NCBI GenBank assembly: GCA_902609065.1 | Contig: CACLQJ010000007.1 | Coordinates: 1 to 42,735, forward strand | Length of the DNA stretch: 42,735 nt | Direction: 5' to 3' | Source: an uncultured Pelagibacteraceae bacterium | GTDB taxonomy: Bacteria; Pseudomonadota; Alphaproteobacteria; Pelagibacterales; Pelagibacteraceae | Shown: positions 1,372 through 19,234 of the stretch, one piece after another | How positions within the stretch are numbered: the first letter of the stretch is position 1 | How the letters are laid out: the number at the start of each line of letters is the position of its first letter | The notes under the pieces: model-generated | Database searches by the model: none | What the model was told of the DNA's origin: nothing | What the model saw: only the letters and a program-made list of their open reading frames with translations | Position numbers and translations under genes: made by a program

Positions 1372-3032
1372 TAGAAATATTGACATTCAGTCAAAAGAAA
1401 AAAGCAATTCTTATAATCATAATTTATATAATTATTAGCTTTTTAGATTTTGTGTCAATTGGTTTGGTAATTCCGTTTTTGGAATTAATTCAAAATAATA
1501 ACCATGAGTCGCTAAATTTCTTACAAAATTATTTTAATGTAAATAACAATCTACATTTAATTTTGATTATTTTTTTTTCTGTATTTTTTATAAAAAATAT
1601 AATCGTTTTTTTTACGAACTACTACCAGTCGAGTTTTATAATTAAAATTAATCACTCTATACAAAAAAAACTATACAAAGATTATATAAATAAAGATTAT
1701 ATTTATTTTTCCAAGAATCATTCATCAAAATTTTTAAGAAATTTAACCTCGGAAGTAGCTCTATTCTCTAATTCTTTTTTATCACCATGCTTAACTATAG
1801 TTTCTAATGTAATATTGATTTTTTTTATTTCATTCTTACTATTAATTTATGATTTTTTTTCAACATCTATAGTAATTTTGTCTGTAGTTTTTGTAATGTA
1901 TTTATATAAATTAATATTTTCAAATTATCTCAAGACACTTGGAATAAATAGACAGATATTTCATAAAGAATATTTGAAAGTAGTGGCAGAGACATTTAAT
2001 ATCGCTACAGAAATTAAATTATTAAAAATTCAAAAATTTTTTGAAAAAAGTTTTTCATATAGGTTACAAAACTTATATGTTAATGCAATAAAGAGAAATA
2101 TTATTAGCCCACTTCCGAAAATATTTTATGAAATTTTTTTCTTATTAGTTTTATTTTTTATAATATTAATTAACTTAGATAATAATACAAATTTATTTAC
2201 GACTTTAGGTGTCTATGTAGCATCAATATTCAGAATTATACCTTCTGCAAACGCTATAACTTCATCTTATAACAAGATCAAATATTCACAGGCAACGATT
2301 CAGATTGTTAAAGAGGGTTTAAAAAAAGTAAATGATATGAAAGATATCAAATCAAAGAATTTAAGCTTTAAAAATATGATTGAGTTTAAAGACGTAAATT
2401 TTAGTTTTGATGATAATTTAATTTTTTCTAAGCTGAATTTCCAAATAAAAAAAGGAGATAAGATTGGAATTATGGGGTCATCTGGGTCAGGAAAAACAAC
2501 CTTCATAAATATTTTGATGGGTCTTATTAAACCTACGCAGGGTTCTATAAAAGTTGATGGAATTGATATAGAAACAGGGGTAGAATCTTGGCAAAATTTA
2601 CTTTCCTATGTTCCCCAAAATGTAAAAATTCTTGATGAGTCTTTAAAAGTAAATATTTCTCTGAATAACGAAGAAAATACAATAAATCAAACAAGATATA
2701 ATGACTCATTGAATAAGTCCCAATTGAACAAATTTATCAAAAAATTCCAATTTAATGATGAAATTAAACTAGGAGAGAATGGCTCCAAAATATCTCAAGG
2801 TGAAAAACAAAGGATTGGTATAGCAAGAGCTATATATAGAAATAGCCAATTATTGATTCTTGATGAGTCCACAAATTTTTTAGATCAAGAGACCAAAAAC
2901 TTATTTTTGCAGGAAATAAGAGATAACTTAAAAAATCTTACAATTATATTTATATCACATGATAAAAAATCACTGGAATTTTGCGAACAAATTTTTAATT
3001 TAGAGAACAATAGATTACAAAAGATTAGTTAA
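1356..3032 (+). CDS. ABC transporter, fused permease/ATPase (MsbA/PglK-like glycolipid or lipid-linked oligosaccharide exporter)
   Basis: N-terminal multi-TM domain; Walker A GSSGSGKTT, Q-loop SYVPQN, signature ISQGEKQRIGIARA, Walker B LLILDEST, H-loop IFISHD. Confidence 0.9.
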   Translation: MFRDLIEILTFSQKKKAILIIIIYIIISFLDFVSIGLVIPFLELIQNNNHESLNFLQNYFNVNNNLHLILIIFFSVFFIKNIIVFFTNYYQSSFIIKINHSIQKKLYKDYINKDYIYFSKNHSSKFLRNLTSEVALFSNSFLSPCLTIVSNVILIFFISFLLLIYDFFSTSIVILSVVFVMYLYKLIFSNYLKTLGINRQIFHKEYLKVVAETFNIATEIKLLKIQKFFEKSFSYRLQNLYVNAIKRNIISPLPKIFYEIFFLLVLFFIILINLDNNTNLFTTLGVYVASIFRIIPSANAITSSYNKIKYSQATIQIVKEGLKKVNDMKDIKSKNLSFKNMIEFKDVNFSFDDNLIFSKLNFQIKKGDKIGIMGSSGSGKTTFINILMGLIKPTQGSIKVDGIDIETGVESWQNLLSYVPQNVKILDESLKVNISLNNEENTINQTRYNDSLNKSQLNKFIKKFQFNDEIKLGENGSKISQGEKQRIGIARAIYRNSQLLILDESTNFLDQETKNLFLQEIRDNLKNLTIIFISHDKKSLEFCEQIFNLENNRLQKIS

Positions 3033-4413
3033 TCACTCTTTTAAGCAGTCCTATTGATGGGGTGTCCTCTAAAGACATTAAATAATTACTTTCGTCAATT
3101 TTAATTATATCCCTAATTCTTTCTCCTATATCTAATTGGTTAAAAATGCTTAAATTGTTTATTTTTTCATCAATTTTAAAAAAGAAAAGTTTATTAGCTT
3201 TTAATGATGATAAAACTAAAATATTATTTTGATCTACAAAAATTTCACTAGGCCCTATATTTCCATCTTTAAAGAAAAAGATTGGTTCAATAAAACCATA
3301 TTTTATATGAGATTTATTTAGTGGTGCTTCTTCTCTAAATTTACCATCATAATGATTTCCGTATGAGGAAATTGGATAGCCAAAATTCTGTAATTTATCT
3401 TTTTTATCTAACCTTATCAAATTAATTTCATCTCCACCTTTAGGACCATGCTCTGACGAAAAAAGTAAATTTTTATCGGGTAAATAAAATAAACCTTGTG
3501 GATTTCTATGTCCTATTGATAAAATATTATATTCTTTATTTTTTACATTTATTCTTAATATCTTACCAAATATAGAATTTTTATTTTGTGCAATTGGCCA
3601 TGAACGGTAATTTCCAATCGTAAAAATAATTTCGTTACCTACTTTTATTATTCTGCCACCACTTTGATTAAGTTGACCATAATTAATTTTTGGATCAAAT
3701 TTCCCCAAGTTGGTTCTAGAATCAACAATACACTCCTTATTTCTAAAAAAATATGTAAAATTAATATTACTCAAATTCATTTCACCTTCTAGTATTGCAT
3801 TTCCAAAGCAGTTTTCTGAAACCTCTCTTACATAAGATATGTAAATCTTATTATCTTCAATTAAAATATCTTTAACCGTATCAGCAAAAGACTGCTGGTG
3901 ATTAATTTTTACAAAATCATTTAAATTACTTTTTATAATTTTAATATTAAGATTATTTTTTAATAAATTTTTTTTATCAAAAAAAAATAATTTACCTGAT
4001 GATAATGCAATTATAATATTATTTTCGTAATCATCTATATAATTCCATTTTATGGTTGGATCATTATAAATCTTAGTTGGATTAGGTATAAAAAATTTCT
4101 TTAGATTAAACTCGTCTTCGTTATCAGAGATCAAATTTTTATTGAAAAAAATTCTTCCCGAATTAAATTCGTACAATTCTTTAATTTCCTTATTTAATTT
4201 TATAATTTCATCTTTTTTTAATTCTATTTCTTTTTTTAGGGTATAATTTCTAAATACCGTTTTTTTTAGGTAATGTTTTATATTTGGATTTATTTTTGCT
4301 TTTAAATTTGAAATTAATTCATTTTGATTATTTAATTGACTTATAAGTATATTTTTACCTAAAAAAAATAAAATTACAAAAAAGACAAAAAATAAAATAT
4401 ATTTTTTTTTCAT
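3025..4413 (-). CDS. PQQ-dependent glucose/sorbosone dehydrogenase-like (GSDH/YliI-type) beta-propeller protein with N-terminal signal anchor
   Basis: Motif GHRNPQGLFYLPDKNLLFSSEHGPKGGDEINLI…NFGYPISSYG is the GSDH family signature. The ORF track begins at a TTG at 4467; the ATG at 4413 (MKKKYILFFVFFVILFFLG) is a better start. Confidence 0.8.
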   Translation of the reverse strand: MKKKYILFFVFFVILFFLGKNILISQLNNQNELISNLKAKINPNIKHYLKKTVFRNYTLKKEIELKKDEIIKLNKEIKELYEFNSGRIFFNKNLISDNEDEFNLKKFFIPNPTKIYNDPTIKWNYIDDYENNIIIALSSGKLFFFDKKNLLKNNLNIKIIKSNLNDFVKINHQQSFADTVKDILIEDNKIYISYVREVSENCFGNAILEGEMNLSNINFTYFFRNKECIVDSRTNLGKFDPKINYGQLNQSGGRIIKVGNEIIFTIGNYRSWPIAQNKNSIFGKILRINVKNKEYNILSIGHRNPQGLFYLPDKNLLFSSEHGPKGGDEINLIRLDKKDKLQNFGYPISSYGNHYDGKFREEAPLNKSHIKYGFIEPIFFFKDGNIGPSEIFVDQNNILVLSSLKANKLFFFKIDEKINNLSIFNQLDIGERIRDIIKIDESNYLMSLEDTPSIGLLKRVIN

Positions 4414-4512
4414 AGTTATGGTAATAAATTTAAATAATAAAAATATCAATAAATTAGATATTTTCAAATCTTTAATTGATAAATTGTTTGATTTAACTAA
4501 TTTAAATACTCA

Positions 4513-6377: not shown

Positions 6378-7259
6378 ATGAAAAAAAATATATGCATAAT
6401 AGGTGGCAGCGGTTTCCTGGGATCACACGTTAGCGATCAATTTTCCAAATTTAAAAATTATAACGTAACTATATTTGATAAACAAAAGTCAAAATTTTTA
6501 CAAAAAGGTCAGAAAATGACAGTTGGTGATATAATGAATTTTAAACAACTTAAAAAAACATTAGTAAATAAAGATTATGTTTTTAATTTTTCAGGGATTT
6601 CTCAATTAGATCTTGCTTTATATCAACCTTACAAAACTGCAAAATTTAACATTTTAGGATTAATAAATATATTAGAAGCATGTAATTTAAATAAAGTAAA
6701 ACATTTTATTCAAGCTAGCTCTATTTACTCTTTAAGTAATGATGGTGGTTTTTATAGTTGCAGCAAAAGGGCAGCAGAGGATTATATTAAAGAATTTAAA
6801 AAAAAATATAATTTAAACTATACAATTTTACGATACGGATCTTTATATGGACCGAGAGCTGACAAAAATAACGGAATTTACAAAATCATAAACTACGCTA
6901 TCAAAAATAAAAAATTGGTATATGAGGGTAGTAAGTCAACTAGAAGAAATTATATAAGTGTGGAAGATGCATCTATTCTAAGTATGAAAATTTTAAATAA
7001 AAAATTCCAAAATAAGACTTTAATCCTGAAAGGGAGAGATTCAATAAAAGTATTGGATTTATTAAATAAACTATCAAAAATTTTAAAAATCGAAAAAAAA
7101 AAAATTTATTTTAACGAGAATAAACATCAATTAGGGCACTATATCAAAAGACCCGATCCATATAAAATTGACGAAGGACAAGAATTATACTATGAAAAAA
7201 AAATTAATTTTACTCAAAGTATTGAAAAATTAGTGTTAAGTATGAAAAATGCGAAATAA
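6378..7259 (+). CDS. NAD-dependent epimerase/dehydratase (extended SDR)
   Basis: GGSGFLGSHVSD Rossmann motif; YSCSKRAAEDY catalytic YxxxK; LRYGSLYGPRAD. Confidence 0.85.
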   Translation: MKKNICIIGGSGFLGSHVSDQFSKFKNYNVTIFDKQKSKFLQKGQKMTVGDIMNFKQLKKTLVNKDYVFNFSGISQLDLALYQPYKTAKFNILGLINILEACNLNKVKHFIQASSIYSLSNDGGFYSCSKRAAEDYIKEFKKKYNLNYTILRYGSLYGPRADKNNGIYKIINYAIKNKKLVYEGSKSTRRNYISVEDASILSMKILNKKFQNKTLILKGRDSIKVLDLLNKLSKILKIEKKKIYFNENKHQLGHYIKRPDPYKIDEGQELYYEKKINFTQSIEKLVLSMKNAK

Positions 7260-8001
7260 CCTAAGAAAAATAAATGAGATAAGAGAAAAATTAAAAAAGA
7301 AACAACCATCTTTTGGAAGTTGGATGCAAATTCCTCATCCTGAAATAGCAAAAATTTTAACAAATAATAAATTTGACTGGATTGTTTTAGATTTAGAACA
7401 TGGATCAGGTTCTATTATTGATATCGGAAAACTCAGCTTTGTAATAGGAGACTCAAAGTCTGCTTTTATCGCAAGAATATCTAATGAAAACTTTAAAAAC
7501 GTAGGTAGATTTTTAGATTTAGGTGTTGAGGGTTTTATTTTATCTAAAACAGAAGACCCAAATGAATTAAAGGTATTTATAAAAAAATCAAACTACACTC
7601 CACACGGAGATAGAGGTTATGGATTTTCTATTTCCAACGACTATGGAGTACAAAATATGAGTGAAACTTTAAGTTTCAAACCTTTAATTGTTGCAATGAT
7701 TGAATCTGTTAAGGGTATCAAAAACCTAAACAAAATACTTAAGGTAAAAGGTATAGATGCAGTTTTTATAGGACCATATGACTTGAGCCTATCACTAGGA
7801 ATACCTGGACAGTTTAGAAATAAAAAATTTATAAAAAATTTATCTTATATATTAAAAATGTGTAAAAAAAATAAAATTGCATGTGGCATACATATGGTGG
7901 ATCCAAATAAAAATGATCTAAAAGATAATTTAAAAAAAGGTTTTACATTTATAGCCTATGCGATGGATACAAGCTTTCTAAAGAAAATTAAATTAAAGTG
8001 A
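7249..8001 (+). CDS. HpcH/HpaI-family aldolase (class II pyruvate aldolase)
   Basis: FGSWMQIPHPEIAKILTNNKFDWIVLDLEHGSG; VAMIESVKGIKNLNKIL; VFIGPYDLSLSLGIPGQ. Confidence 0.88.
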   Translation: MRNNLRKINEIREKLKKKQPSFGSWMQIPHPEIAKILTNNKFDWIVLDLEHGSGSIIDIGKLSFVIGDSKSAFIARISNENFKNVGRFLDLGVEGFILSKTEDPNELKVFIKKSNYTPHGDRGYGFSISNDYGVQNMSETLSFKPLIVAMIESVKGIKNLNKILKVKGIDAVFIGPYDLSLSLGIPGQFRNKKFIKNLSYILKMCKKNKIACGIHMVDPNKNDLKDNLKKGFTFIAYAMDTSFLKKIKLK

Positions 8002-8741
8002 AAATTCTAACCTTAATACCCGCAAGGTTAAACAGTTCAAGGTTTCCTAGGAAACCTCTTAAAAAAATATTTGAAAATTCAATGATCCTAGAGGTTTATA
8101 AAAACGTGTCCAAAAGTAAACTACTTAAAGATATTTATGTTGCAACATGTGATAAAGAGATTTTTGATCATATTTCTTTGAATAATTGCGATGCTATAAT
8201 GACTTCTAAAACTCACGAAAGAGCAAGCGATAGGTGTGCAGAAGCTTTATATAAGATAGAAAAGAAAAAAAAAATTATATACGATATTGTTTTAATGGTA
8301 CAAGGAGATGAACCTCTAGTTAACCCAAAGATGATAGAACAATCTTTAAAGCCATTTAAAAATGATAAAACAATTAATGTTGTAAATTTAATTGGAAAAA
8401 TAAATAAAAAAGAAGCCATGAATAGTGATTGTATCAAAGTAGTAAAAAATAAATTTGATAAAGCAATATATTTTACAAGAAGCTTGATACCTAGTGGTGT
8501 TAAAAGTGGAGGAACCTATTTTAAGCAAATTTGCATTATACCATTTAGGAGAAATTTTCTTAAAAAATATATAAAATTAAAGCCCACTAATTTAGAAAAA
8601 TTAGAGTCTATTGATATGTTGAGAATATTAGAAAATGGATATGATGTCAAATTGGTAGAAACAAAAGAAATTTCAATTCCAGTCGATAGAAAAGAAGATA
8701 TCGTAAAAGTAAGAAAGTTTTTAAATAACCTAAAAAACTGA
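7998..8741 (+). CDS. KdsB-like CMP-3-deoxy-ulosonate cytidylyltransferase
   Basis: TLIPARLNSSRFPRKPL nucleotide loop; VLMVQGDEPLVNPKMIEQ; IDMLRILENGYDVKLVET C-terminal KdsB-type motif. GTG start overlaps the upstream stop. Confidence 0.85.
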   Translation: MKILTLIPARLNSSRFPRKPLKKIFENSMILEVYKNVSKSKLLKDIYVATCDKEIFDHISLNNCDAIMTSKTHERASDRCAEALYKIEKKKKIIYDIVLMVQGDEPLVNPKMIEQSLKPFKNDKTINVVNLIGKINKKEAMNSDCIKVVKNKFDKAIYFTRSLIPSGVKSGGTYFKQICIIPFRRNFLKKYIKLKPTNLEKLESIDMLRILENGYDVKLVETKEISIPVDRKEDIVKVRKFLNNLKN

Positions 8742-8760
8742 ATTTTTTGAAAAAAATTAT

Positions 8761-9435
8761 ATGACGATTTTTTACAAGAAAATTAACTTATTAATATCGA
8801 AAAAAGTTAAGAAAAAAAAAATTAATATGTTATTAACTGGGGGACAAACAGCAAAGGGTCTTTACAAATATTGGCAAAAAAATAACTACTTTTTGAAAAA
8901 TAAGAACATAAATTTTTTTTTATCAGATGAAAGAATTGTATCTACAAATCAAAAAAATAGTAATTATAATGCGTTGAAAAAAAATTTATTTTTTAATGAT
9001 GGTTCTATTAAGTATAGATTTTTCACATTTTTTTACGACAAGAAAAAAATGAAAACACAAATAAAAAAATATGAAAACGTATTACCAAAATATTTTGATA
9101 TAGCAATTCTCTCATCAGGCAATGATGGACATGTAGCGTCAATCTTCTCAAACAACAAAAATCAATTAGATACGAACAAAAAAATAGTATTTAGTTATGC
9201 TATTAATAAGCCAATAAAAAGAATTACGTTAAGTTTAAAATTCATCAAAAAGACAAAAATCATTATAATTATGTTTAAAGGAACAAAAAAAGGTAAGATT
9301 GCAGCAGAAACGAGGATTAATCCAAAAAATAGTAAATTTATAATATCAAATTTTTTAAAAAGTTATTGGATATTTGATAAAAAAGCACATACTGCGTATA
9401 GGAAAAAATTATTAAACAAAAACTTAAAAAATTGA
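8761..9435 (+). CDS. 6-phosphogluconolactonase/NagB-family isomerase-like protein
   Basis: LLTGGQTAKGLYKYW; FFLSDERIVSTNQKNSNYNALKKNLF; ILSSGNDGHVASIF. Confidence 0.8.
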   Translation: MTIFYKKINLLISKKVKKKKINMLLTGGQTAKGLYKYWQKNNYFLKNKNINFFLSDERIVSTNQKNSNYNALKKNLFFNDGSIKYRFFTFFYDKKKMKTQIKKYENVLPKYFDIAILSSGNDGHVASIFSNNKNQLDTNKKIVFSYAINKPIKRITLSLKFIKKTKIIIIMFKGTKKGKIAAETRINPKNSKFIISNFLKSYWIFDKKAHTAYRKKLLNKNLKN

Positions 9436-10385
9436 ATATTCTTGTTACAGCCACACCATTTTGTGAAGACAGTAAAGAGCCGATAAAGTTATTAAAAAAG
9501 CATAATTTGAATTTTATTTTCTATTCTAAAGATATTAATACCGAAACAAAACTTATTAATTTGTTAAAAGATAAAGATATAGTTATTGCTGGGCTAGAGA
9601 ATTATTCAGAAAAAGTTTTAAAAAAATCAAAAAAATTGAAACTTATATCAAGAGTTGGCATAGGTTTGGATAATATAGACTTAAAGGCAGCGAAAAAATA
9701 TAAAGTTAGTGTTACAAACACCCCAGATGGTCCAACAGCCGCTGTTGTAGAATTTACTATTGGTTTAATTTTTTCATCTCTTAGATTAATACATAAATCT
9801 TATTTAAATATTTTAAATTCAAATTGGACAAGGGAAACAGGTTTTAGAATTGAAAATTGTATTATTGGTGTAATAGGTGTAGGTAGGACAGGCAGTGGTG
9901 TAGTAAATTTGCTAAATAAGTTGGGTGTTAAAAAAATTTTAGTCAACGATATTAATTACAATAATATTAAATTTAAAAAAAATACTTTCAAAACAACAAA
10001 AAAAAAAATTTACAGGCAAGCCGATATAATTTCGCTTCACATTCCCTATACAAAAAAAACTCATAAATTAATTTCATATAAAGAGCTCAAGATGTTTAAA
10101 AAAAATAGCATTTTAATTAATACTTCAAGAGGAGGAATTGTCGACGAAAAAGCACTATATTCCGCATTAAAAAATAAAAAATTGTTTTCTGCGGCAATGG
10201 ACGTTTTTTTAAATGAGCCGTATAAGGGACAACTAAAAAAATTAAAAAACTGCTTATTAACCTCACATATGGCATCAATGTCAAAAGATTGCCGCATAAA
10301 AATGGAGACAGAAGCGACTGAAGCAGCAATTAGATTTATAAATAAAAAAAAATTAAAAAATTATTTAGGTAAAATTGAGCTGTAA
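9432..10385 (+). CDS. D-isomer-specific 2-hydroxyacid dehydrogenase (phosphoglycerate dehydrogenase-like)
   Basis: ISRVGIGLDNIDLKAAKKYKVSVTNTPDGPTAAVVEFTIGLI; GVIGVGRTGSGV; INTSRGGIVDEKAL; LTSHMAS. TTG start. Confidence 0.88.
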   Translation: MNILVTATPFCEDSKEPIKLLKKHNLNFIFYSKDINTETKLINLLKDKDIVIAGLENYSEKVLKKSKKLKLISRVGIGLDNIDLKAAKKYKVSVTNTPDGPTAAVVEFTIGLIFSSLRLIHKSYLNILNSNWTRETGFRIENCIIGVIGVGRTGSGVVNLLNKLGVKKILVNDINYNNIKFKKNTFKTTKKKIYRQADIISLHIPYTKKTHKLISYKELKMFKKNSILINTSRGGIVDEKALYSALKNKKLFSAAMDVFLNEPYKGQLKKLKNCLLTSHMASMSKDCRIKMETEATEAAIRFINKKKLKNYLGKIEL

Positions 10386-11101
10386 TGTTTAAAATTGAAA
10401 AAAACGATGTCATATGTGTTATTCCTGCAAGAGGAGGATCAAAAGGATTAAAAAAAAAAAACTTAAAGAAAGTTTTAAAAAAGAAATTGATACATTATCC
10501 TATTAAATATGCTTTAAAATCTAAACTAGTAGGCACAGTTTTAGTTTCAACAGATAGTAAAAGTATAGCCTCTGAAGCAATAAAAGCTGGTGCAATTGTG
10601 CCTTTTTTAAGACCAAAGAAGTTGAGTACTGATCTTGCGACGACTGAAGCCACACTCAAGCATGCCTTGTTAACTTTTGAAAAAAAAATAAATAAAAAAT
10701 TTAAAATTTGTATTTTTCTAACCTGCACCGATATTTTTAGAAAACCAAAATGGATTGAAAAAGGTATTGACATTCTAAAAAAAAAAAAAAATATAGAGAG
10801 TGTATTCGTAGGATTTAAAACACATAAAAATTTTTGGGAAAAAAAGAGAAAGTCAGGTTGGAAAAGATTGAAAAATAGAATGAAAACCTACTCCTCTAGA
10901 CAAGTAAGAAATTATTTAATTAGGGAAGATACGGGTCTTTTTTGTGCCTCTAGAGCTGAATTATGGAGAAAAGGAAAAAGAATTGGAGACAAAGTGCAGG
11001 TAATTCAAAATGATGACACTTTTAGCAGTATAGATATTCATAATTTAGATGATTTAAGATTAGCCAACTCAGCTATGAAAATTTTTAATGAAAAAAAATA
11101 A
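10385..11101 (+). CDS. NeuA-like acylneuraminate/CMP-sugar cytidylyltransferase
   Basis: VICVIPARGGSKGLKKKNLKKV; VLVSTDSKSIASEAIKAGAIVPFLRPKKLSTDLATTEATLKHAL; SIDIHNLDDLRLAN acidic C-terminal motif. Confidence 0.85.
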   Translation: MFKIEKNDVICVIPARGGSKGLKKKNLKKVLKKKLIHYPIKYALKSKLVGTVLVSTDSKSIASEAIKAGAIVPFLRPKKLSTDLATTEATLKHALLTFEKKINKKFKICIFLTCTDIFRKPKWIEKGIDILKKKKNIESVFVGFKTHKNFWEKKRKSGWKRLKNRMKTYSSRQVRNYLIREDTGLFCASRAELWRKGKRIGDKVQVIQNDDTFSSIDIHNLDDLRLANSAMKIFNEKK

Positions 11102-12449
11102 ATTAGTATCAATTATAATTCGAACAAAGAATGAGGAGAGTTGGATTTCTATTTGTTTAGATAAAATTTTTAAACAAAATTATAAAAATTTTGAGGTGAT
11201 AATTGTTGACAACAACTCAACTGATAAGACTATAAAAAGAGCTTTAGAATATAAAGTAAGAATTGTAAAAATAAAAAAATTTTTTCCTGGAAAAGCGATT
11301 AATCTTGGTATCAAAAAATCAAAAGGAGATATTATTGTATGTCTATCTGCACACTGTATTCCAGTTAATGACAATTGGTTGAAAAATTTAATCCAACCTT
11401 TAAAAAATAAACAAATAGCTGGATCTTACGGTAGACAAGAGCCCTACTCGTTTTCAAGTGATTTTGATAAAAGAGACCTGTTGAATACATTTGGTCTAGA
11501 TAAAAAAATTCAAAAAAAAGACTCTTTTTTTCATAATGCTAATAGTGCATTTACAAAAAAAATATGGAAAAAATTTCCTTTTGATGAAAATATTACAAAT
11601 ATTGAGGATCGAATTTGGGGAAATATTGTTATTAAGTCTGGTTATAAAATACTTTATAATCCTGATGCTAGTGTGTTCCATTATCATGGAATACATCAAG
11701 ATCTTGATCCAGTTAGATGTAAACAAATAGTGGGTATACTCGAGTCCTTTGGCGATGAATTTAAATCCTCTCAGATAAAAGAAAATAATAAAAATAAAAT
11801 TTTAGCTATTATACCTCAGCGTGATAAAACGAAAATTTATAATAAACAAAATTTAATTTCTTTTACTATTAATGAGATAAAACAATCAAAGAAAATTAAA
11901 GAAATAGTAGTATCAACAAATGATTTTAATACAAAAAAAATTTCTGAAAATCTTGGGGCTAAAGTGCCCTTTTTAAGACCAAAAAATCTCTCCGAAAGTT
12001 ATGTAGACTTAAATTCAGTGCTTAAATTTACTTTAGAAAAATTAGAAAGAAACCGAAAATTTTTTGATATTGTTGTAATTGCAAGTGAAAATTATCCCCT
12101 GAGAAAAAAAAATTTATTTGATAAAATGATAAGTAAATTAATTTTAGGAAATTATGAGACAGTAATAGCATGCAAAACAGAAAAAGGAAGTGTTTGGCAG
12201 AAAAATAGATTTAAAACTATCAATCTTGTGGATAATTCAATTCCATCAAAAATCAAAAGTCAAAAGACTCTAATTGCAAATACTGGATATGCATGTGTAA
12301 CACGACCTAATAAAATTAGAAAAAATGATATTCTAAATGGAAAAGTTTATTTCTATGAAATAGATGACCAAAGTAGCTTTTTCGAAATTCAAAATTTTAA
12401 AAACTTTAAAAAATTTGTCGATCAAAAATTAAGTTATGAAAAAGGTTAA
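11088..12449 (+). CDS. bifunctional-architecture protein: N-terminal GT2 glycosyltransferase fused to a C-terminal NeuA-like cytidylyltransferase domain
   Basis: N-terminal SIIIRTKNEESWISICLDKIFKQNYKNFEVIIVDNNSTDKT (GT2); from about residue 236 KILAIIPQRDKTKIYNKQN…KEIVVSTNDFNTKKISENLGAKVPFLRPKNLSESYVDLNSVLKFTLEKL, collinear with the NeuA-like protein encoded just upstream. Confidence 0.82.
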   Translation: MKKNKLVSIIIRTKNEESWISICLDKIFKQNYKNFEVIIVDNNSTDKTIKRALEYKVRIVKIKKFFPGKAINLGIKKSKGDIIVCLSAHCIPVNDNWLKNLIQPLKNKQIAGSYGRQEPYSFSSDFDKRDLLNTFGLDKKIQKKDSFFHNANSAFTKKIWKKFPFDENITNIEDRIWGNIVIKSGYKILYNPDASVFHYHGIHQDLDPVRCKQIVGILESFGDEFKSSQIKENNKNKILAIIPQRDKTKIYNKQNLISFTINEIKQSKKIKEIVVSTNDFNTKKISENLGAKVPFLRPKNLSESYVDLNSVLKFTLEKLERNRKFFDIVVIASENYPLRKKNLFDKMISKLILGNYETVIACKTEKGSVWQKNRFKTINLVDNSIPSKIKSQKTLIANTGYACVTRPNKIRKNDILNGKVYFYEIDDQSSFFEIQNFKNFKKFVDQKLSYEKG

Positions 12450-13503
12450 AACAACAATCATTGGATGTGGAAGAGTTGCTGAACATTATAAAAAAATAAT
12501 TAAAAGATATAAAATCAATAATTTATCAATAGTTGGTGTGTGTGATCTTGATGAAAAAAAAGCATTAAGATTCTCTAAGTTATTTAAATGTAACCATTAT
12601 AAAAATTACAAAAAAATGCAACAACTTGAAAAGCCTCAGTTAACCTTGATATTAAGCCCCTCAGGCTCTCATTTTATGCATTCTAAACATGCCTTAGAAA
12701 ATAACATAAATGTTTTAAGTGAAAAACCAATGACTATGTTACCAAATAATATTAGAAAACTAAATAAATTAGCAAAAAAGAAAAAATTAATGTATGGAGT
12801 AGTTTTTCAAAACAGAGAAAACTTAGCCATTAAAGCACTCAAAAAAGCTTTGAAGCAAAAAAGATTTGGAAAGATTGTAAATATATCAATTAATATTTTT
12901 TGGTGCCGGTATCAAAACTATTATAATGATGGATGGCATGGAACATGGAAAGATGATGGGGGGGTATTAAATCAACAAGCGATCCATCATGTAGACGTTC
13001 TAAATTGGTTATTTGGACCTATACATTCAGTTTTTGCTAAATCAACAAGGAGATTAAATAAACTTCAAGCAGAGGATACAATAATTGTAGCTTTTGAAAA
13101 TACCAAGGGTGTTTTGGGCACTATTCAAGCTACTACTGCAGCAAGACCATCAGATTACGAGGCTTCAATAAAAGTTTTCGGCGAAAAGGGATATGTTCAA
13201 ATAGGAGGAATAGCACTTAATAAAATTTTAGTTTGGAATTTTTTATCAAAAAGAAAGAGTGACAATCAAATTAAAAAAAAATATTCAGAAAATGTTGATT
13301 CTGGTTATGGCAATAGTCATTATATTGTCTTGGGTGAAACACTTAAAAGATTAATTAACAAAAATTCTAATGCTTTAGTAAGCGCTGATGAGGCCGAAAA
13401 CACAGGTAGATTAATTCATTCTATATATAATAGTTGTGAAAATAAAAAATTAGTTTTATTAAGTAAAAAATTATTGTCAAATAAACTTGGATTAAATAAT
13501 TGA
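12436..13503 (+). CDS. Gfo/Idh/MocA-family oxidoreductase
   Basis: TTIIGCGRVAEHYKKII; LSEKPMTM; GGVLNQQAIHHVDVLNWLFG. Confidence 0.9.
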   Translation: MKKVKTTIIGCGRVAEHYKKIIKRYKINNLSIVGVCDLDEKKALRFSKLFKCNHYKNYKKMQQLEKPQLTLILSPSGSHFMHSKHALENNINVLSEKPMTMLPNNIRKLNKLAKKKKLMYGVVFQNRENLAIKALKKALKQKRFGKIVNISINIFWCRYQNYYNDGWHGTWKDDGGVLNQQAIHHVDVLNWLFGPIHSVFAKSTRRLNKLQAEDTIIVAFENTKGVLGTIQATTAARPSDYEASIKVFGEKGYVQIGGIALNKILVWNFLSKRKSDNQIKKKYSENVDSGYGNSHYIVLGETLKRLINKNSNALVSADEAENTGRLIHSIYNSCENKKLVLLSKKLLSNKLGLNN

Positions 13504-14396
13504 TGTCAAATTTAGAAAATAAATTTCCTGGAAAAGATATAACAATTGAAGATATTAAAACTAAATTCCCTTTAGTTGCTAAAAAAACTAAAAATCATTA
13601 CTCAAAATTTAAAATTGCAGGAGTAGAATTTGGGGGCAAATTAATTCCAATATTTGCAGGTCCAAATATGGTAGAGACAAAATCTTTAATTCTTAATACT
13701 GCGAAAAATGTAAAAAAAATTGGAGCTCAATTCCTTAGAGGTGGTGCTTTTAAACCCTTAACTTTTCCTTACAGAAGCAAAAAATATAATGAAACCCGTG
13801 AAATTGGTTTACAATGGTTAAAAGAGGCAAAAATAAAATATAAAATTCCTGTGATAACAGAAGTTATGGAGGAGAGATTTATACCTATTGTTTGTGAAAC
13901 TTCTGATATTTTACAAATAGGATCAAGAAATATGCAAAACTTCCCTTTGTTAACAGCTTGTGCAAAAACAAAAAAACCTATTATGCTCAAACGACATTAT
14001 GGATCTTCTTTAAGAGATTGGTTGGGTGCTGCAGAATATTTAATGGTAGAAGGAAATAAAAAAATTTTATTATGTGAAAGAGGAGTTTCTGTACCTCATA
14101 CTCATAGAAATACCTCAAGATTTTTAATAGACTTACAAGTAGTGCCTGCAGCAAAAGAAATTACTCATTTACCTATAGTTATTGATCCGTCTCATGCCAC
14201 TTTTTGGAGACCATGGGTTCCCTCAATGACACTTGCTTCTATAGCTGCTGGTGCTGATGGGATAATGTTAGAAGTTCATCCAAATCCAACTAAGGCAGCG
14301 GTTGATCCTCTACAACCAATCAGTTTCAGTTCATTTAAAAAATTACATAAAGAAATGCAAGCAGTAGCAAAATCTATTAATAGAAAAATTGATTAG
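13503..14396 (+). CDS. 3-deoxy-7-phosphoheptulonate (DAHP) synthase-like, type Ibeta/KDOPS superfamily, with altered active-site motifs
   Basis: AGPNMVE…LRGGAFKPLTFPY…VITEVM…LQIGSRNMQNFPLL…LLCERGV…IDPSHATFWR…ADGIMLEVHPNPTKAAVDPLQPI follows the type Ibeta DAHPS layout. ATG at 13503 preferred over TTG at 13500. Confidence 0.85.
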   Translation: MSNLENKFPGKDITIEDIKTKFPLVAKKTKNHYSKFKIAGVEFGGKLIPIFAGPNMVETKSLILNTAKNVKKIGAQFLRGGAFKPLTFPYRSKKYNETREIGLQWLKEAKIKYKIPVITEVMEERFIPIVCETSDILQIGSRNMQNFPLLTACAKTKKPIMLKRHYGSSLRDWLGAAEYLMVEGNKKILLCERGVSVPHTHRNTSRFLIDLQVVPAAKEITHLPIVIDPSHATFWRPWVPSMTLASIAAGADGIMLEVHPNPTKAAVDPLQPISFSSFKKLHKEMQAVAKSINRKID

Positions 14397-16210
14397 TGTA
14401 CACAATAGGTATCCATTACGGTCATGATAGCAATGTATCTTTAATTGAGGATGGCAAATGTATATTTGCAATATCGGAGGAAAGACTAACAAGGGTTAAA
14501 TTTGACAATAGATGGCCGAAAGAAGGTATTAAATACATTTTTGAAAAATTTAAACTTAATCCTGAAAATATAGCTGCAGTAGCTGTAGTAGGAAGCTCAA
14601 AACAAGAAGAAACCTCTGGTGGATCAATAGAAAATATTTATAAAAAATTTGGCAAACAAACAAATTCATTTATTAAAATGATATCAAGGATAATCAACCC
14701 TTTTGATAATATATTTGATTTTTTAAAAATAAGAAAAAAGATTACTATTAGTTTTATTAAGAAAAAAATTTTCGAATTAGGAATAAAAAATGATAGAATA
14801 TTTTTTTTAGACCATCATTTTTGCCATGCTGTTGGTGCGTTTTATGCCTCAAATTTTAAAGAAGCTTTGATTATAACGTGTGATGGAAAAGGTGACGACT
14901 CCTGTCATAAATCATTCATTGGAAGTAAAAACGAAAATGGTTTGAGTAGCTTAAAATTTATCGCAAAATCTGATCCAATTGACTCAATTGGTTTTTTTTA
15001 TTCAACAATCACAGAATTCTTAGGATTTAAAAGAATGAGACATGAAGGCAAAATTACTGGCCTAGCAGCTTTCGGTACCAAAGATTATGATAATGATATA
15101 TCACCGATTGGACTATCCTCTAATGGATTATCATTAAAAAATAATTTGATAAAAGAAAAAATTAAAAAATCAAAATTTTTTCTTTTTTTAAAATTTTTTT
15201 TGCTTGATCCTAAAATGTTCTGTAAAATTTTATTTAATAATGCGGCTATAAAAGGGAGATTCTCACAATTAACATTAAAAAAATTTGTCTCTACTAAATT
15301 TATAAAAGAAGATAAAGCTAATGTAGCAAAGTATGCTCAAACAGTTTTAGAAAATACACTTAGGCAGCTTATTCAAAACACGTTGAAAATAGTTAAAGTA
15401 TCTAAAATATGTTTATCAGGTGGAGTTTTTGCAAACGTCAAACTAAATCAAAAAATTTATGAAATTACAAAAAAAGAAATTTACGTTATGCCAGGGATGG
15501 ATGATGGTGGATTATCTATTGGTGCAGGACTTTACATCTATGAAAGAAATTTGAAAAAACCAATTATTGAAAAGTTTGAAAATATTTATTATGGACCAAG
15601 TTATGATGAAAAATATATTTTAGAGGTATTGAATAATTCTGGTTTTAAATTTGAGAAAATTGAATTTATTGAAAAAAAAATTGCAGAAAATCTAGCTGCC
15701 GGAAGTATAGTTGGTAGATTTGATGGATCTATGGAGTGGGGACCAAGGGCTTTAGGAAATAGAAGTATTCTTGCAAATGCGAAAAATAAAGAAATAAATA
15801 CAATTTTAAATAATAGACTCTCTAGAACTGAATTCATGCCTTTCGCACCAATAATTCTAGAGGAAGATGCAGATAATTATTTTGAAAATTATAAAAAATT
15901 TAAGTGTTTTGAATTTATGACAATGACACTTAAAGTTAGAGACGGAAAAATTCAAAAAATTCCAGCAGTGGTTCACACTGATAATACTGCAAGACCTCAA
16001 TGTGTAAAAAAAAATATAAACAAATCTTTATATATTTTATTACAAGAGTATAAAAAGTTTAGTGAAATTCCTGTTCTTATTAATACAAGTTTTAATTTGC
16101 ACGAGGAACCAATTGTGTGTACGCCTAATGATGCTTTAAAAGCGTTAGAAAGAAACGCTGTTGATTTTTTAGCAATTGGAAATTTTTGGGTTGAAAATAA
16201 ATCTGTATGA
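14396..16210 (+). CDS. NodU/CmcH-family carbamoyltransferase
   Basis: IGIHYGHDSNVSLI; ISEERLTRVKFDNRWP; DHHFCHAVGAFYAS; CLSGGVFANVKLNQKI; GRFDGSMEWGPRALGNRSILANA. GTG start overlaps the upstream TAG. Confidence 0.93.
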   Translation: MYTIGIHYGHDSNVSLIEDGKCIFAISEERLTRVKFDNRWPKEGIKYIFEKFKLNPENIAAVAVVGSSKQEETSGGSIENIYKKFGKQTNSFIKMISRIINPFDNIFDFLKIRKKITISFIKKKIFELGIKNDRIFFLDHHFCHAVGAFYASNFKEALIITCDGKGDDSCHKSFIGSKNENGLSSLKFIAKSDPIDSIGFFYSTITEFLGFKRMRHEGKITGLAAFGTKDYDNDISPIGLSSNGLSLKNNLIKEKIKKSKFFLFLKFFLLDPKMFCKILFNNAAIKGRFSQLTLKKFVSTKFIKEDKANVAKYAQTVLENTLRQLIQNTLKIVKVSKICLSGGVFANVKLNQKIYEITKKEIYVMPGMDDGGLSIGAGLYIYERNLKKPIIEKFENIYYGPSYDEKYILEVLNNSGFKFEKIEFIEKKIAENLAAGSIVGRFDGSMEWGPRALGNRSILANAKNKEINTILNNRLSRTEFMPFAPIILEEDADNYFENYKKFKCFEFMTMTLKVRDGKIQKIPAVVHTDNTARPQCVKKNINKSLYILLQEYKKFSEIPVLINTSFNLHEEPIVCTPNDALKALERNAVDFLAIGNFWVENKSV

Positions 16211-17028
16211 AAAAAAATTATGTATTAATTATCGGAAAGTCACCATCAAAGGGAGCAAGATCCCCTATTTTATGGAATAAAGTTTTTAAAAAAAAAAAAA
16301 TTGATTGTAAAATGTTTGCTTTAGATATTCCAAATAAAAATACTCTTAAAAAAAAATTTATAAAACTTCAGAAGGATAAATATTTTTTAGGTGGAGCTAT
16401 AACTACACCCTACAAAGAAGATATTGCAAAATTACTGAAAAACAATTTAACACCTGGAGCAAAAAAAATTAAGGCAGTCAATTGTCTATTTAGAAAAAAA
16501 GACATTCTTTATGGTACCAACACTGATGGTGAGGCAGCAGTAGAAAGTTTGACAAATAATTTTGGAAAAATTAAAAATAAAAAGATTCTTTTAATTGGAT
16601 TTGGAGGCGCTGGCAAAGCAATTGCTTCATATTTAAGTTTTGAGCTAAGAAAAAAAAATTATCTTAATATCTTAGTAAAAGATAACAAAAAATATAAATC
16701 AAATTACGTATTTATTAATTATAAGAATTTAAAATTAAGAAATTATGAGATAATCATTAATGCCACTTCCATGGGTTTTGATAATAAAAAAAATTTATCA
16801 CCATTGTCGGAGTATGATATTTTAAATCTCAAACCTAATTGTTTTATATTTGATATTATCTATAATCCCAAAAAAACTAATTTCCTAAATATGTGTAACA
16901 AAAATAAATTTAAAACTTTAAATGGTTTAGACATGAATCTTAGACAAGCGGCAATAGCATTTAAGTATACAATTAGAGTGCCAAAAAAATATAAAATAAG
17001 AAAAATAATGGATATAATGGCAAAATAG
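16207..17028 (+). CDS. shikimate dehydrogenase (AroE)-like oxidoreductase
   Basis: GARSPILWN; GGAITTPYKEDI (catalytic Lys); KAVNCLF; YGTNTDGEAAVESL (catalytic Asp); LIGFGGAGKAIASYL; IINATSMGF; LNGLDMNLRQAAIAFKYT. Confidence 0.85.
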   Translation: MKKNYVLIIGKSPSKGARSPILWNKVFKKKKIDCKMFALDIPNKNTLKKKFIKLQKDKYFLGGAITTPYKEDIAKLLKNNLTPGAKKIKAVNCLFRKKDILYGTNTDGEAAVESLTNNFGKIKNKKILLIGFGGAGKAIASYLSFELRKKNYLNILVKDNKKYKSNYVFINYKNLKLRNYEIIINATSMGFDNKKNLSPLSEYDILNLKPNCFIFDIIYNPKKTNFLNMCNKNKFKTLNGLDMNLRQAAIAFKYTIRVPKKYKIRKIMDIMAK

Positions 17029-17106: not shown

Positions 17107-18084
17107 ATGAAAAAAAATTATTTTATAACAGGTGGAACAGGCTCTCTAGCTAAAAAACTTATTGAACATCTTATAAAACACAGATTGGCTAAAAAAATAG
17201 TTTTATTTAGCAGAGATGAATTTAAGCAAAGCAAATTACATGAACTACCCTTTGTAAGAGACAATGTATCAATTTTTAGATTTTTCATTGGTGATATTAG
17301 AGATATATCCAGATTAAATTGGGCTCTTGGAGAAGATATTAATGTTGTAATACACACTGCAGCATTAAAACAAGTCCCAACAACAGAATACAATCCATTT
17401 GAAACAGTTCAAACTAATATAGTTGGTACTCAAAATTTAATTGAAGTATCTATTAAAAAAAAAATAGATAAGATAATATTAATAAGCACAGACAAGGCAG
17501 TCTCCCCAATTAATTTATATGGCTCAACTAAGCTTACGGCTGAAAAGCTTTTTATTTCAGCTAACCTTTTTAAAGGCAAATCCAAATCAAAATTTAGTGT
17601 AGCCAGGTATGGTAATGTTATGGGTAGCAGAGGTTCTGTGATCCCAATTTTAATTAATCAAAATAAACAAAAAAAAAAATTCACAATAACAGACGAAAGG
17701 ATGACAAGATTCAATATATCCTTAAATCAAGCAGTATTATTTGTAATAAAATGTATTTCAAAAATGAAGGGAAAAGAAATTTTTGTACCTAAATGTCCTT
17801 CATATAAAATTATGGATGTTGCAAAAGCTATTAATTCAAAAAATAAAATTAAATTTATCGGTATAAGACCTGCCGAAAAGATACACGAAGAATTAATCAA
17901 TAAGTCAGAATATTTTAATTGTAAAGAAAAACAAGACGAATTTATTATTTACCCTACTGTCACTAAAATAAAAAAAAATTTGAAGGAAGGAATTTCATAC
18001 AATAGTTATGAAAATAAAAAATATCTAACTATAAATAAAATTAGAGAATTAATTAAAAAAAACATCTCGGATTTTGAAAAATAA
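17107..18084 (+). CDS. pseB: UDP-GlcNAc 4,6-dehydratase (PseB/FlaA1-like)
   Basis: YFITGGTGSLAKKLIEHL; HTAALKQVPTTEYNPFETVQTNIVGTQNLIE; STDKAVSPINLYGSTKLTAEKLFISAN; VARYGNVMGSRGSVIP. Confidence 0.85.
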   Translation: MKKNYFITGGTGSLAKKLIEHLIKHRLAKKIVLFSRDEFKQSKLHELPFVRDNVSIFRFFIGDIRDISRLNWALGEDINVVIHTAALKQVPTTEYNPFETVQTNIVGTQNLIEVSIKKKIDKIILISTDKAVSPINLYGSTKLTAEKLFISANLFKGKSKSKFSVARYGNVMGSRGSVIPILINQNKQKKKFTITDERMTRFNISLNQAVLFVIKCISKMKGKEIFVPKCPSYKIMDVAKAINSKNKIKFIGIRPAEKIHEELINKSEYFNCKEKQDEFIIYPTVTKIKKNLKEGISYNSYENKKYLTINKIRELIKKNISDFEK

Positions 18085-18094
18085 AACATTAAAA

Positions 18095-19234
18095 ATGTTT
18101 ATATCTTACGGAAAGCAAAGTATTGATAAATCAGATATTAAGTCAGTTCAAAATGTTTTAAGGAAGGACTTATTAACCCAAGGACCTTTAGTTAAAAAAT
18201 TTGAACTAAGTTTAAAAAAAAAACTAAATTCAAAATATGCTACAGTTGTAAATAATGGTTCATCAGCACTACTAACTATCGGAAAAATTTTAAATTGGAA
18301 AAAAGGAGATATTATTGCAGTGCCTCCAATAACTTTCTTGTCCTCAGTAAATACAATTGAACATTGTGGCGCAAAACCAATTTTTATCGATATAAGCTTA
18401 AATGATTATTGTATGGATCCAAATATTTTAGAAATAGCTTTAAAAAAGGATAAAAAAAAAAAAATTAAAGCTGCAATCATCGTTGATTACGGTGGGCGAC
18501 CAGCACAATGGGATAAGTTTCTTGCCTTGAAAAGAAAATATAAAATCAAACTGGTAAACGACAATTGTCACGCTATCGGTTCATCATTAAACAAAAATAA
18601 AGGATATGCCGTAAAGTATGCAGACTTAGTCTCTCTGAGTTTTCATCCAGTGAAAGCAATAACAACGGGCGAGGGAGGTGCAATACTTACTAACAATCCA
18701 TATTACGAAAAAAAAGCAAAAATTTTAAGGACGCATGGAATAATTAGGCAAAATGATCACTGGAAGTATAAAATGCATGAACTAGGTTACAACTTCAGGT
18801 TGCCAGATATTAATTGTGCACTAGGAATAAGTCAAATAAAAAGATTAGAAAAATTTATAAATAAAAGAACAAAGATAGCAAAAATTTACGATGAATTATT
18901 TTCAGATAATAAAAAATTTGTTAAAATAAAAGACAATAATAATATTCAAAATTCATATCATCTGTATCCACTATTATTAAATTTGGAAACAATAAAAAAA
19001 AAGAAAGATGAAATTATAAAAGAATTTTTAAAGTATAATATAAAGCTACAAGTTCATTATATTCCTGTAAATACACAACCGTTTTATAAAAAAAAATACG
19101 GATTTAATAAAAACAATTATCGAAATTCTCTTAAATTTTTTAGTCGTTGTATTTCTCTACCGATATATAATGATTTAAACAATAAACAATTAAATTATGT
19201 AACTAAAATTTGCAAAAAAATATTTAAAATTTAA
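18095..19234 (+). CDS. pseC: PLP-dependent nucleotide-sugar 4-aminotransferase (PseC-like, DegT/DnrJ/EryC1 family)
   Basis: ISYGKQSIDKSDIKSVQNVLRKDLLTQGPLVKKFE; VNNGSSALL; SFHPVKAITTGEGGAILTNN; immediately downstream of the pseB-like gene. ATG at 18095 preferred over TTG at 18074. Confidence 0.85.
   Translation: MFISYGKQSIDKSDIKSVQNVLRKDLLTQGPLVKKFELSLKKKLNSKYATVVNNGSSALLTIGKILNWKKGDIIAVPPITFLSSVNTIEHCGAKPIFIDISLNDYCMDPNILEIALKKDKKKKIKAAIIVDYGGRPAQWDKFLALKRKYKIKLVNDNCHAIGSSLNKNKGYAVKYADLVSLSFHPVKAITTGEGGAILTNNPYYEKKAKILRTHGIIRQNDHWKYKMHELGYNFRLPDINCALGISQIKRLEKFINKRTKIAKIYDELFSDNKKFVKIKDNNNIQNSYHLYPLLLNLETIKKKKDEIIKEFLKYNIKLQVHYIPVNTQPFYKKKYGFNKNNYRNSLKFFSRCISLPIYNDLNNKQLNYVTKICKKIFKI

Follow-up and report, generated by a model that had tools for sequence, protein, structure and literature searches.

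A probable cassette for a CMP-activated ulosonic acid, built around a DAHPS-like synthase, in a SAR11-family surface-polysaccharide region

What might a marine bacterium make with a run of genes that joins cytidine monophosphate (CMP)-sugar synthetases to relatives of aromatic-pathway enzymes? The question is raised by a 42,735-base, AT-rich stretch of DNA (G+C approximately 19–31% per kb; hereafter the window), which is contig C7 of a 743 kb, 62% complete genome of an uncultured Pelagibacteraceae bacterium. Eleven + strand open reading frames at 6378-17028 abut or overlap, with a sole gap of 19 bases (8742-8760). The near-abutting, same-strand layout described in an earlier note on this DNA is borne out by these coordinates, and all eleven of its family names were upheld when checked against Pfam and NCBIfam; as it also stated, aroB, neuB and kdsA were not identified among the window genes examined. 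The run comprises three units: a five-gene core, a rarer upstream module and an optional NodU-type gene. We consider it fairly probable that the core is a cassette complete in itself, spread by horizontal transfer and serving a CMP-activated surface 3-deoxy-2-ulosonic acid, made from phosphoenolpyruvate (PEP) and an acceptor other than erythrose 4-phosphate (E4P). The conserved core spans 10385-14396 and 16207-17028 and consists of the following genes:

10385..11101, + strand: NeuA/PseF-like cytidylyltransferase (F; PseF 9e-34)
11088..12449, + strand: family 2 glycosyltransferase (GT2) fused to a degenerate NeuA-like domain (G; GT2 4.6e-27, PseF-like C-terminus 3.7e-14)
12436..13503, + strand: Gfo/Idh/MocA oxidoreductase (H; Pfam/NCBIfam)
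13500..14396, likely ATG start 13503, + strand: DAHPS type Ib-like synthase (I; DAHP_synth_1 6.8e-52)
16207..17028, + strand: AroE-like dehydrogenase (K; TIGR00507 2.5e-44, below cut-off)

A homolog search with the DAHPS-like protein recovered 68 loci from named genomes at 56-94% identity, hosted by SAR11, Prochlorococcus (including MIT 9302), SAR324, Marinomonas, Denitromonas, Roseibium, Azospirillum and several metagenome-assembled genomes; the closest named match, at 94% identity, is in Candidatus Pelagibacter ubique HTCC9565 (SAR11). Within 5 kb of the synthase gene, the 36 loci having enough flank contain the AroE-like gene in 35 cases, Gfo/Idh in 35, the GT2–cytidylyltransferase fusion in 33 and NeuA in 28, and the precise order NeuA, GT2–cytidylyltransferase, Gfo/Idh, DAHPS, AroE is present in 26 loci; the sample includes related genomes, so locus counts are not independent events. 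Pairwise distances of the synthase, the oxidoreductase, the fusion protein and the AroE-like protein correlate with one another (r 0.42-0.66, permutation maxima up to 0.25), and conservation is far higher for the synthase (mean identity 0.72) than for the others (0.38-0.45). In Marinomonas and Roseibium the five core genes stand isolated amid unrelated genes, the flanks there being an ArsP permease and MerR upstream with a sulfotransferase and an EF-P-like gene downstream, and a histidine phosphatase and LysR. A tRNA-Cys lies within a few kb of the cassette in four Prochlorococcus loci, and in L022 the cassette is near tRNA-Ala and tRNA-Ile, probably an rRNA operon. Pattern-free searches, counting the own genome each time, found the synthase family in 8/151 relatives, 6/386 class genomes and 3/399 phylum genomes, and its occurrence is therefore sporadic.

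The genome also carries separate enzymes for the housekeeping reactions: a class II DAHPS at C3:19218-20531, an AroE at C2:14450, and a KdsA at G000:C1:30692 that is of the Cys type and has a KANRSS-type acceptor motif. A complete SAR11 genome, G012, likewise contains the cassette plus separate housekeeping DAHPS, AroE and KdsA. Trees place the AroE-like proteins of the cassette apart from six SAR11 housekeeping AroE (support 1.0) and likewise separate its DAHPS-like proteins from both SAR11 KdsA and ordinary type Ib DAHPS (support 0.995). A housekeeping origin of the two genes was rejected on these trees and separate copies: they are neither the only copies in the genome nor housekeeping orthologs, the outcome that the earlier note had named as fatal to its proposal. 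The proposal itself, that the module is dedicated to an unusual CMP-activated sugar acid and is not housekeeping, is supported by the separate copies together with the conserved gene set.

The synthase was surveyed in 69 aligned cassette members, with the Pyrococcus DAHPS as the reference and residue roles as listed in PMC6362186. The PEP-binding residues R60, K65, R120, K141 and R171 are kept in 69/69, as are H206, E232 and D243. The metal-binding Cys (AGPCS) is Asn in 69/69, a residue that was partly preselected, as the 68-locus genome scan used peptide patterns including FAGPNMVE; pattern-free searches also returned members with AGPN and KPL, including an AGPNTVE variant (Asn was not read out for L006 and L150). 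The E4P-binding Arg67 of the KPRT motif, which is kept in six control DAHPS, is Leu in every member, and the Ser two positions past it is Phe, again without exception. The earlier note suggested a heptulosonate or a shikimate-like unit; the loss of this Arg weakens the case for a heptulosonate derived from E4P, the acceptor of true DAHPS. All reported DAHPS are metalloenzymes (PMC6362186), and the exchange of Cys for Asn marks the metal-independent form of KDO8P synthase (PMC3052366). From the residue signature we infer that the synthase runs PEP chemistry on an aldehyde other than E4P, and it is probably metal-free. The curated model TIGR01361 accepts the window protein as DAHPS (272.2 vs a cut-off of 267.75 bits), along with its counterparts from Marinomonas (283) and Roseibium (273), and the family is therefore probably misannotated as DAHPS by automated pipelines. 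An AlphaFold model of the protein (mean predicted local distance difference test score of 84) has type Ib DAHPS as its best PDB matches.

The NeuA-like cytidylyltransferase of the window has an intact ARGGSKGxxxKN motif, and an RGGSKG-type motif occurs in 45/54 members of its family. The C-terminal domain of the GT2 fusion aligns with this family over 222 columns (hhalign, probability 100, E 2.5e-40) and lacks the catalytic RGGSKG loop in 56/56 proteins; by its sequence, it is a degenerate derivative of NeuA. At L152, the GT2 and the degenerate domain are encoded by separate genes. We conjecture that the inactive domain may dock the intact cytidylyltransferase.

The AroE-like dehydrogenase scores under the AroE curated cut-off (TIGR00507, 151.5 vs 200.2 bits). 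Its family keeps K65, N86, T101 and D102 in 65/65 (Lys65 and Asp102 being catalytic), and the substrate pocket is changed, with S14 replaced by Ala in 62/65, L15 by Arg in 64/65 and a His by Trp in 64/65. The carboxylate-binding SxS motif is thus not intact, S16 being kept and S14 mostly replaced; all six SAR11 housekeeping AroE have HSLSP. One enzyme of the AroE-like superfamily, 5-ketofructose reductase (7cok), reduces a ketosugar, which makes it plausible that the cassette enzyme acts on a ketosugar in open-chain form. For the Gfo/Idh oxidoreductase, the nearest curated models are inositol 2-dehydrogenase (the best) and UDP-GlcNAc 3-dehydrogenase, both under cut-off.

In the pathway that we propose, the synthase would condense PEP with a non-E4P aldehyde, probably without metal, to give a 3-deoxy-2-ulosonic acid; in the most economical reading the acceptor would be a free sugar, and the cassette has no recognisable phosphatase gene, in keeping with a non-phosphorylated route. 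The two NAD(P)-dependent enzymes, Gfo/Idh and AroE-like, would either ready the acceptor or, by oxidation and then reduction, reset a stereocentre. The cytidylyltransferase would then yield the CMP-sugar, and the GT2, its inactive domain perhaps docking the cytidylyltransferase, would move the sugar onto a surface glycan. In the window strain, the carbamoyltransferase probably decorates the product. A fuller claim is offered tentatively, with somewhat less than even weight: that the DAHPS-fold synthase opens a metal-independent route, with a non-phosphorylated acceptor, to 3-deoxy-2-ulosonic acids of a new class, that the inactive synthetase domain of the GT2 channels the donor, and that horizontal transfer has spread the whole among the most abundant bacteria of the ocean.

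Several points weigh against this pathway. We infer its product, every substrate, the step order, the glycan that accepts the sugar and the docking of the cytidylyltransferase. To our knowledge, GT2 enzymes using CMP-ulosonates have not been established. A conserved Arg further along the synthase motif (KPLTFPYR) could hold a phosphate, and the acceptor could accordingly be phosphorylated. A few family members (L080, L150 and L081) are without AroE or Gfo/Idh neighbours. Finally, NeuA is the most exchanged part of the cassette, with distances that correlate poorly with those of the other core members, and because of this variability different hosts may activate different sugars.

The same enzymes can be arranged into a shikimate-type cyclitol branch, in which the synthase would make DAHP or an analogue, ring closure would fall to housekeeping aroB and aroD, and a quinate- or shikimate-like glycan unit would come from the AroE-like and Gfo/Idh enzymes. 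The DAHPS-like and AroE-like genes are indeed the tightest cassette pair (35/36 loci), and inositol 2-dehydrogenase is the best curated model for the oxidoreductase; nevertheless, we regard this branch as unlikely. The synthase has lost its metal Cys and E4P-binding Arg in all 69 members, the shikimate-carboxylate-binding Ser14 of AroE is Ala in 62/65, and no aroB-like or kinase-like gene is found among the most recurrent clusters (assigned by eye, partly by Pfam). Moreover, a NeuA-like enzyme with an intact motif normally requires an anomeric ulosonate hydroxyl, which cyclitols do not have. It is more improbable still, to the point that we give it very little weight, that the two genes encode additional DAHPS and AroE isozymes of the ordinary kind, which boost aromatic flux and lie in a surface island by chance: the acceptance by TIGR01361 and the predicted type Ib fold would suit such isozymes, but the active-site changes in both proteins are invariant and the two are constantly accompanied by a CMP-sugar synthetase and a GT2.

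The remaining alternative is that of the earlier note, a single eleven-gene pathway for one carbamoylated sugar acid, and it involves the six genes that interrupt or precede the core:

6378..7259, + strand: NAD-dependent epimerase/dehydratase of the short-chain dehydrogenase/reductase (SDR) type (A; optional upstream module)
7249..8001, + strand: HpcH/HpaI class II pyruvate aldolase (B; HpcH_HpaI 1.2e-26; optional upstream module)
7998..8741, + strand: KdsB-like CMP-ulosonate synthetase (C; NF003952 above cut-off; optional upstream module)
8761..9435, + strand: 6-phosphogluconolactonase/NagB-like protein (D; Glucosamine_iso/6PGL; optional upstream module)
9432..10385, + strand: PGDH-like D-2-hydroxyacid dehydrogenase (E; optional upstream module)
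14396..16210, + strand: NodU/CmcH-type O-carbamoyltransferase (J; Carbam_trans_N/C; optional insertion in core)

Lack of joint conservation elsewhere, the other outcome that the earlier note had named as fatal, is contradicted for the core: DAHPS, AroE, Gfo/Idh, GT2–cytidylyltransferase and NeuA are kept together across phyla. All eleven genes were found together only in the window and HTCC9565 (L082). The identical set in that strain, like the single strand and near absence of gaps, speaks for one pathway, but we find this quite unlikely, and the claim is not supported by the other loci. Most of them have the core without A-E and without NodU; of the loci examined, only the window, L024 and HTCC9565 contain all of A-B-C-D-E, and at L024 three genes, two of them on the opposite strand, separate A-E from the core. 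Conversely, A-B-C (SDR-HpcH-KdsB) is found in the same order with no core nearby in three other SAR11-family genomes (L127, L128 and L129), where a pyruvate-aldolase route to a CMP-ulosonate is possible. The NodU-type gene lies inside the core only in the window and HTCC9565, and other NodU-type genes are near five further loci. The best explanation is that A-E form a second CMP-ulosonate module that abuts the core by happenstance.

The run ends 78 bases before a PseB-like gene at 17107, and it is followed by PseB- and PseC-like genes, glycosyltransferases and sugar dehydratases, by which the region around it is identified as a surface-polysaccharide region. The PseB- and PseC-like genes (17107-19234) score slightly under the equivalog cut-offs, and the window genes examined showed no PseG, PseH or PseI. 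On the - strand, 3025-4467 encodes a glucose/sorbosone dehydrogenase-like protein with an N-terminal hydrophobic segment, and proteins resembling it in size and look recur around further core loci (cluster c24, judged by eye).

Variation around the cassette was observed elsewhere as well. At L150 (2215-5354) and L080, a divergent synthase without AroE or Gfo/Idh partners stands beside GmhA-like, GmhB-like, transaldolase and GT41 genes, and at L010, L039 and L040 genes resembling adenylylsulfate kinase and pyruvate kinase come after the synthase (clusters c33 and c34, named by eye). In the complete SAR11 genome G012 (L013, approximately 18043-18900), a frameshift breaks the cassette AroE-like gene, reflecting decay or a sequencing error. 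A group of uncultured Alphaproteobacteria (L062-L076, L084 and similar) has the cassette in one conserved context between PMT_2 genes and near a PagL-like gene; this suggests stable vertical inheritance in the group, and the PMT-type glycosyltransferase and PagL-like neighbours hint at lipopolysaccharide as the target. Carriage by viruses was rejected, as viral contigs contained no relative and phage-record matches were all below 60% identity (approximately 40% among the matches listed). Plasmids were rejected likewise, the best matches having approximately 40% identity and six of them being ordinary DAHPS.

If the proposed pathway is correct, an enzyme that annotation pipelines would label as aromatic-pathway in SAR11, Prochlorococcus and other marine bacteria starts a surface-sugar pathway, which would put right the annotation of a whole family and extend the short list of known ways to ulosonic acids. 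It would also offer a handle on surface variation in the most abundant ocean bacteria, with a bearing on phage attachment and grazing. Marinomonas ostreistagni, Roseibium and Prochlorococcus MIT 9302 are named carriers open to testing.

CMP-ulosonate surface sugar pathways are known as a kind; the present enzyme set with its synthase signature is undescribed in the literature searched, no description of it having been found in open-access sources, and a link to bradyrhizose was considered and is unsupported by the literature found. The synthase shares with type Ib DAHPS (TIGR01361, aroF) its fold (Foldseek TM approximately 0.8), approximately 40% identity and all PEP-site residues, but differs in the three exchanges of Cys to Asn, Arg to Leu and Ser to Phe and forms a clade of its own. 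Like the metal-independent KDO8P synthase, it has Asn for the metal Cys and keeps the remaining three ligands (PMC3052366), whereas its identity to KdsA is only approximately 22% and it is without a KANRSS-type acceptor motif. The nonulosonic acid pathways (NeuB/NeuA, Pse, Leg) follow the same sequence of PEP condensation, CMP activation and transfer; in contrast, the core uses a DAHPS-fold synthase in place of NeuB and contains no NeuC/PseB-type steps, and a neuB-like gene is nearby in only 13/74 loci, with none in the core. With the pathways to 3-deoxy-D-manno-octulosonic acid (Kdo) and 8-amino-Kdo (KdsA, KdsB, KdnAB), the run has in common CMP-ulosonate chemistry and a KdsB-like gene; however, the module is without kdsA, kdsC and kdnAB, and the KdsB-like gene belongs to the separate unit with the HpcH aldolase. 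SAR11 genomes carry hypervariable regions, surface-polysaccharide islands that vary by strain, such as HVR2 (PMC2217521). DAHP, aldolase and cytidylyltransferase are unmentioned in the text of that paper and the window contains no rRNA, but the cassette resembles HVR2 in belonging to a strain-variable surface-polysaccharide island and, at L022, in lying near a probable rRNA operon.

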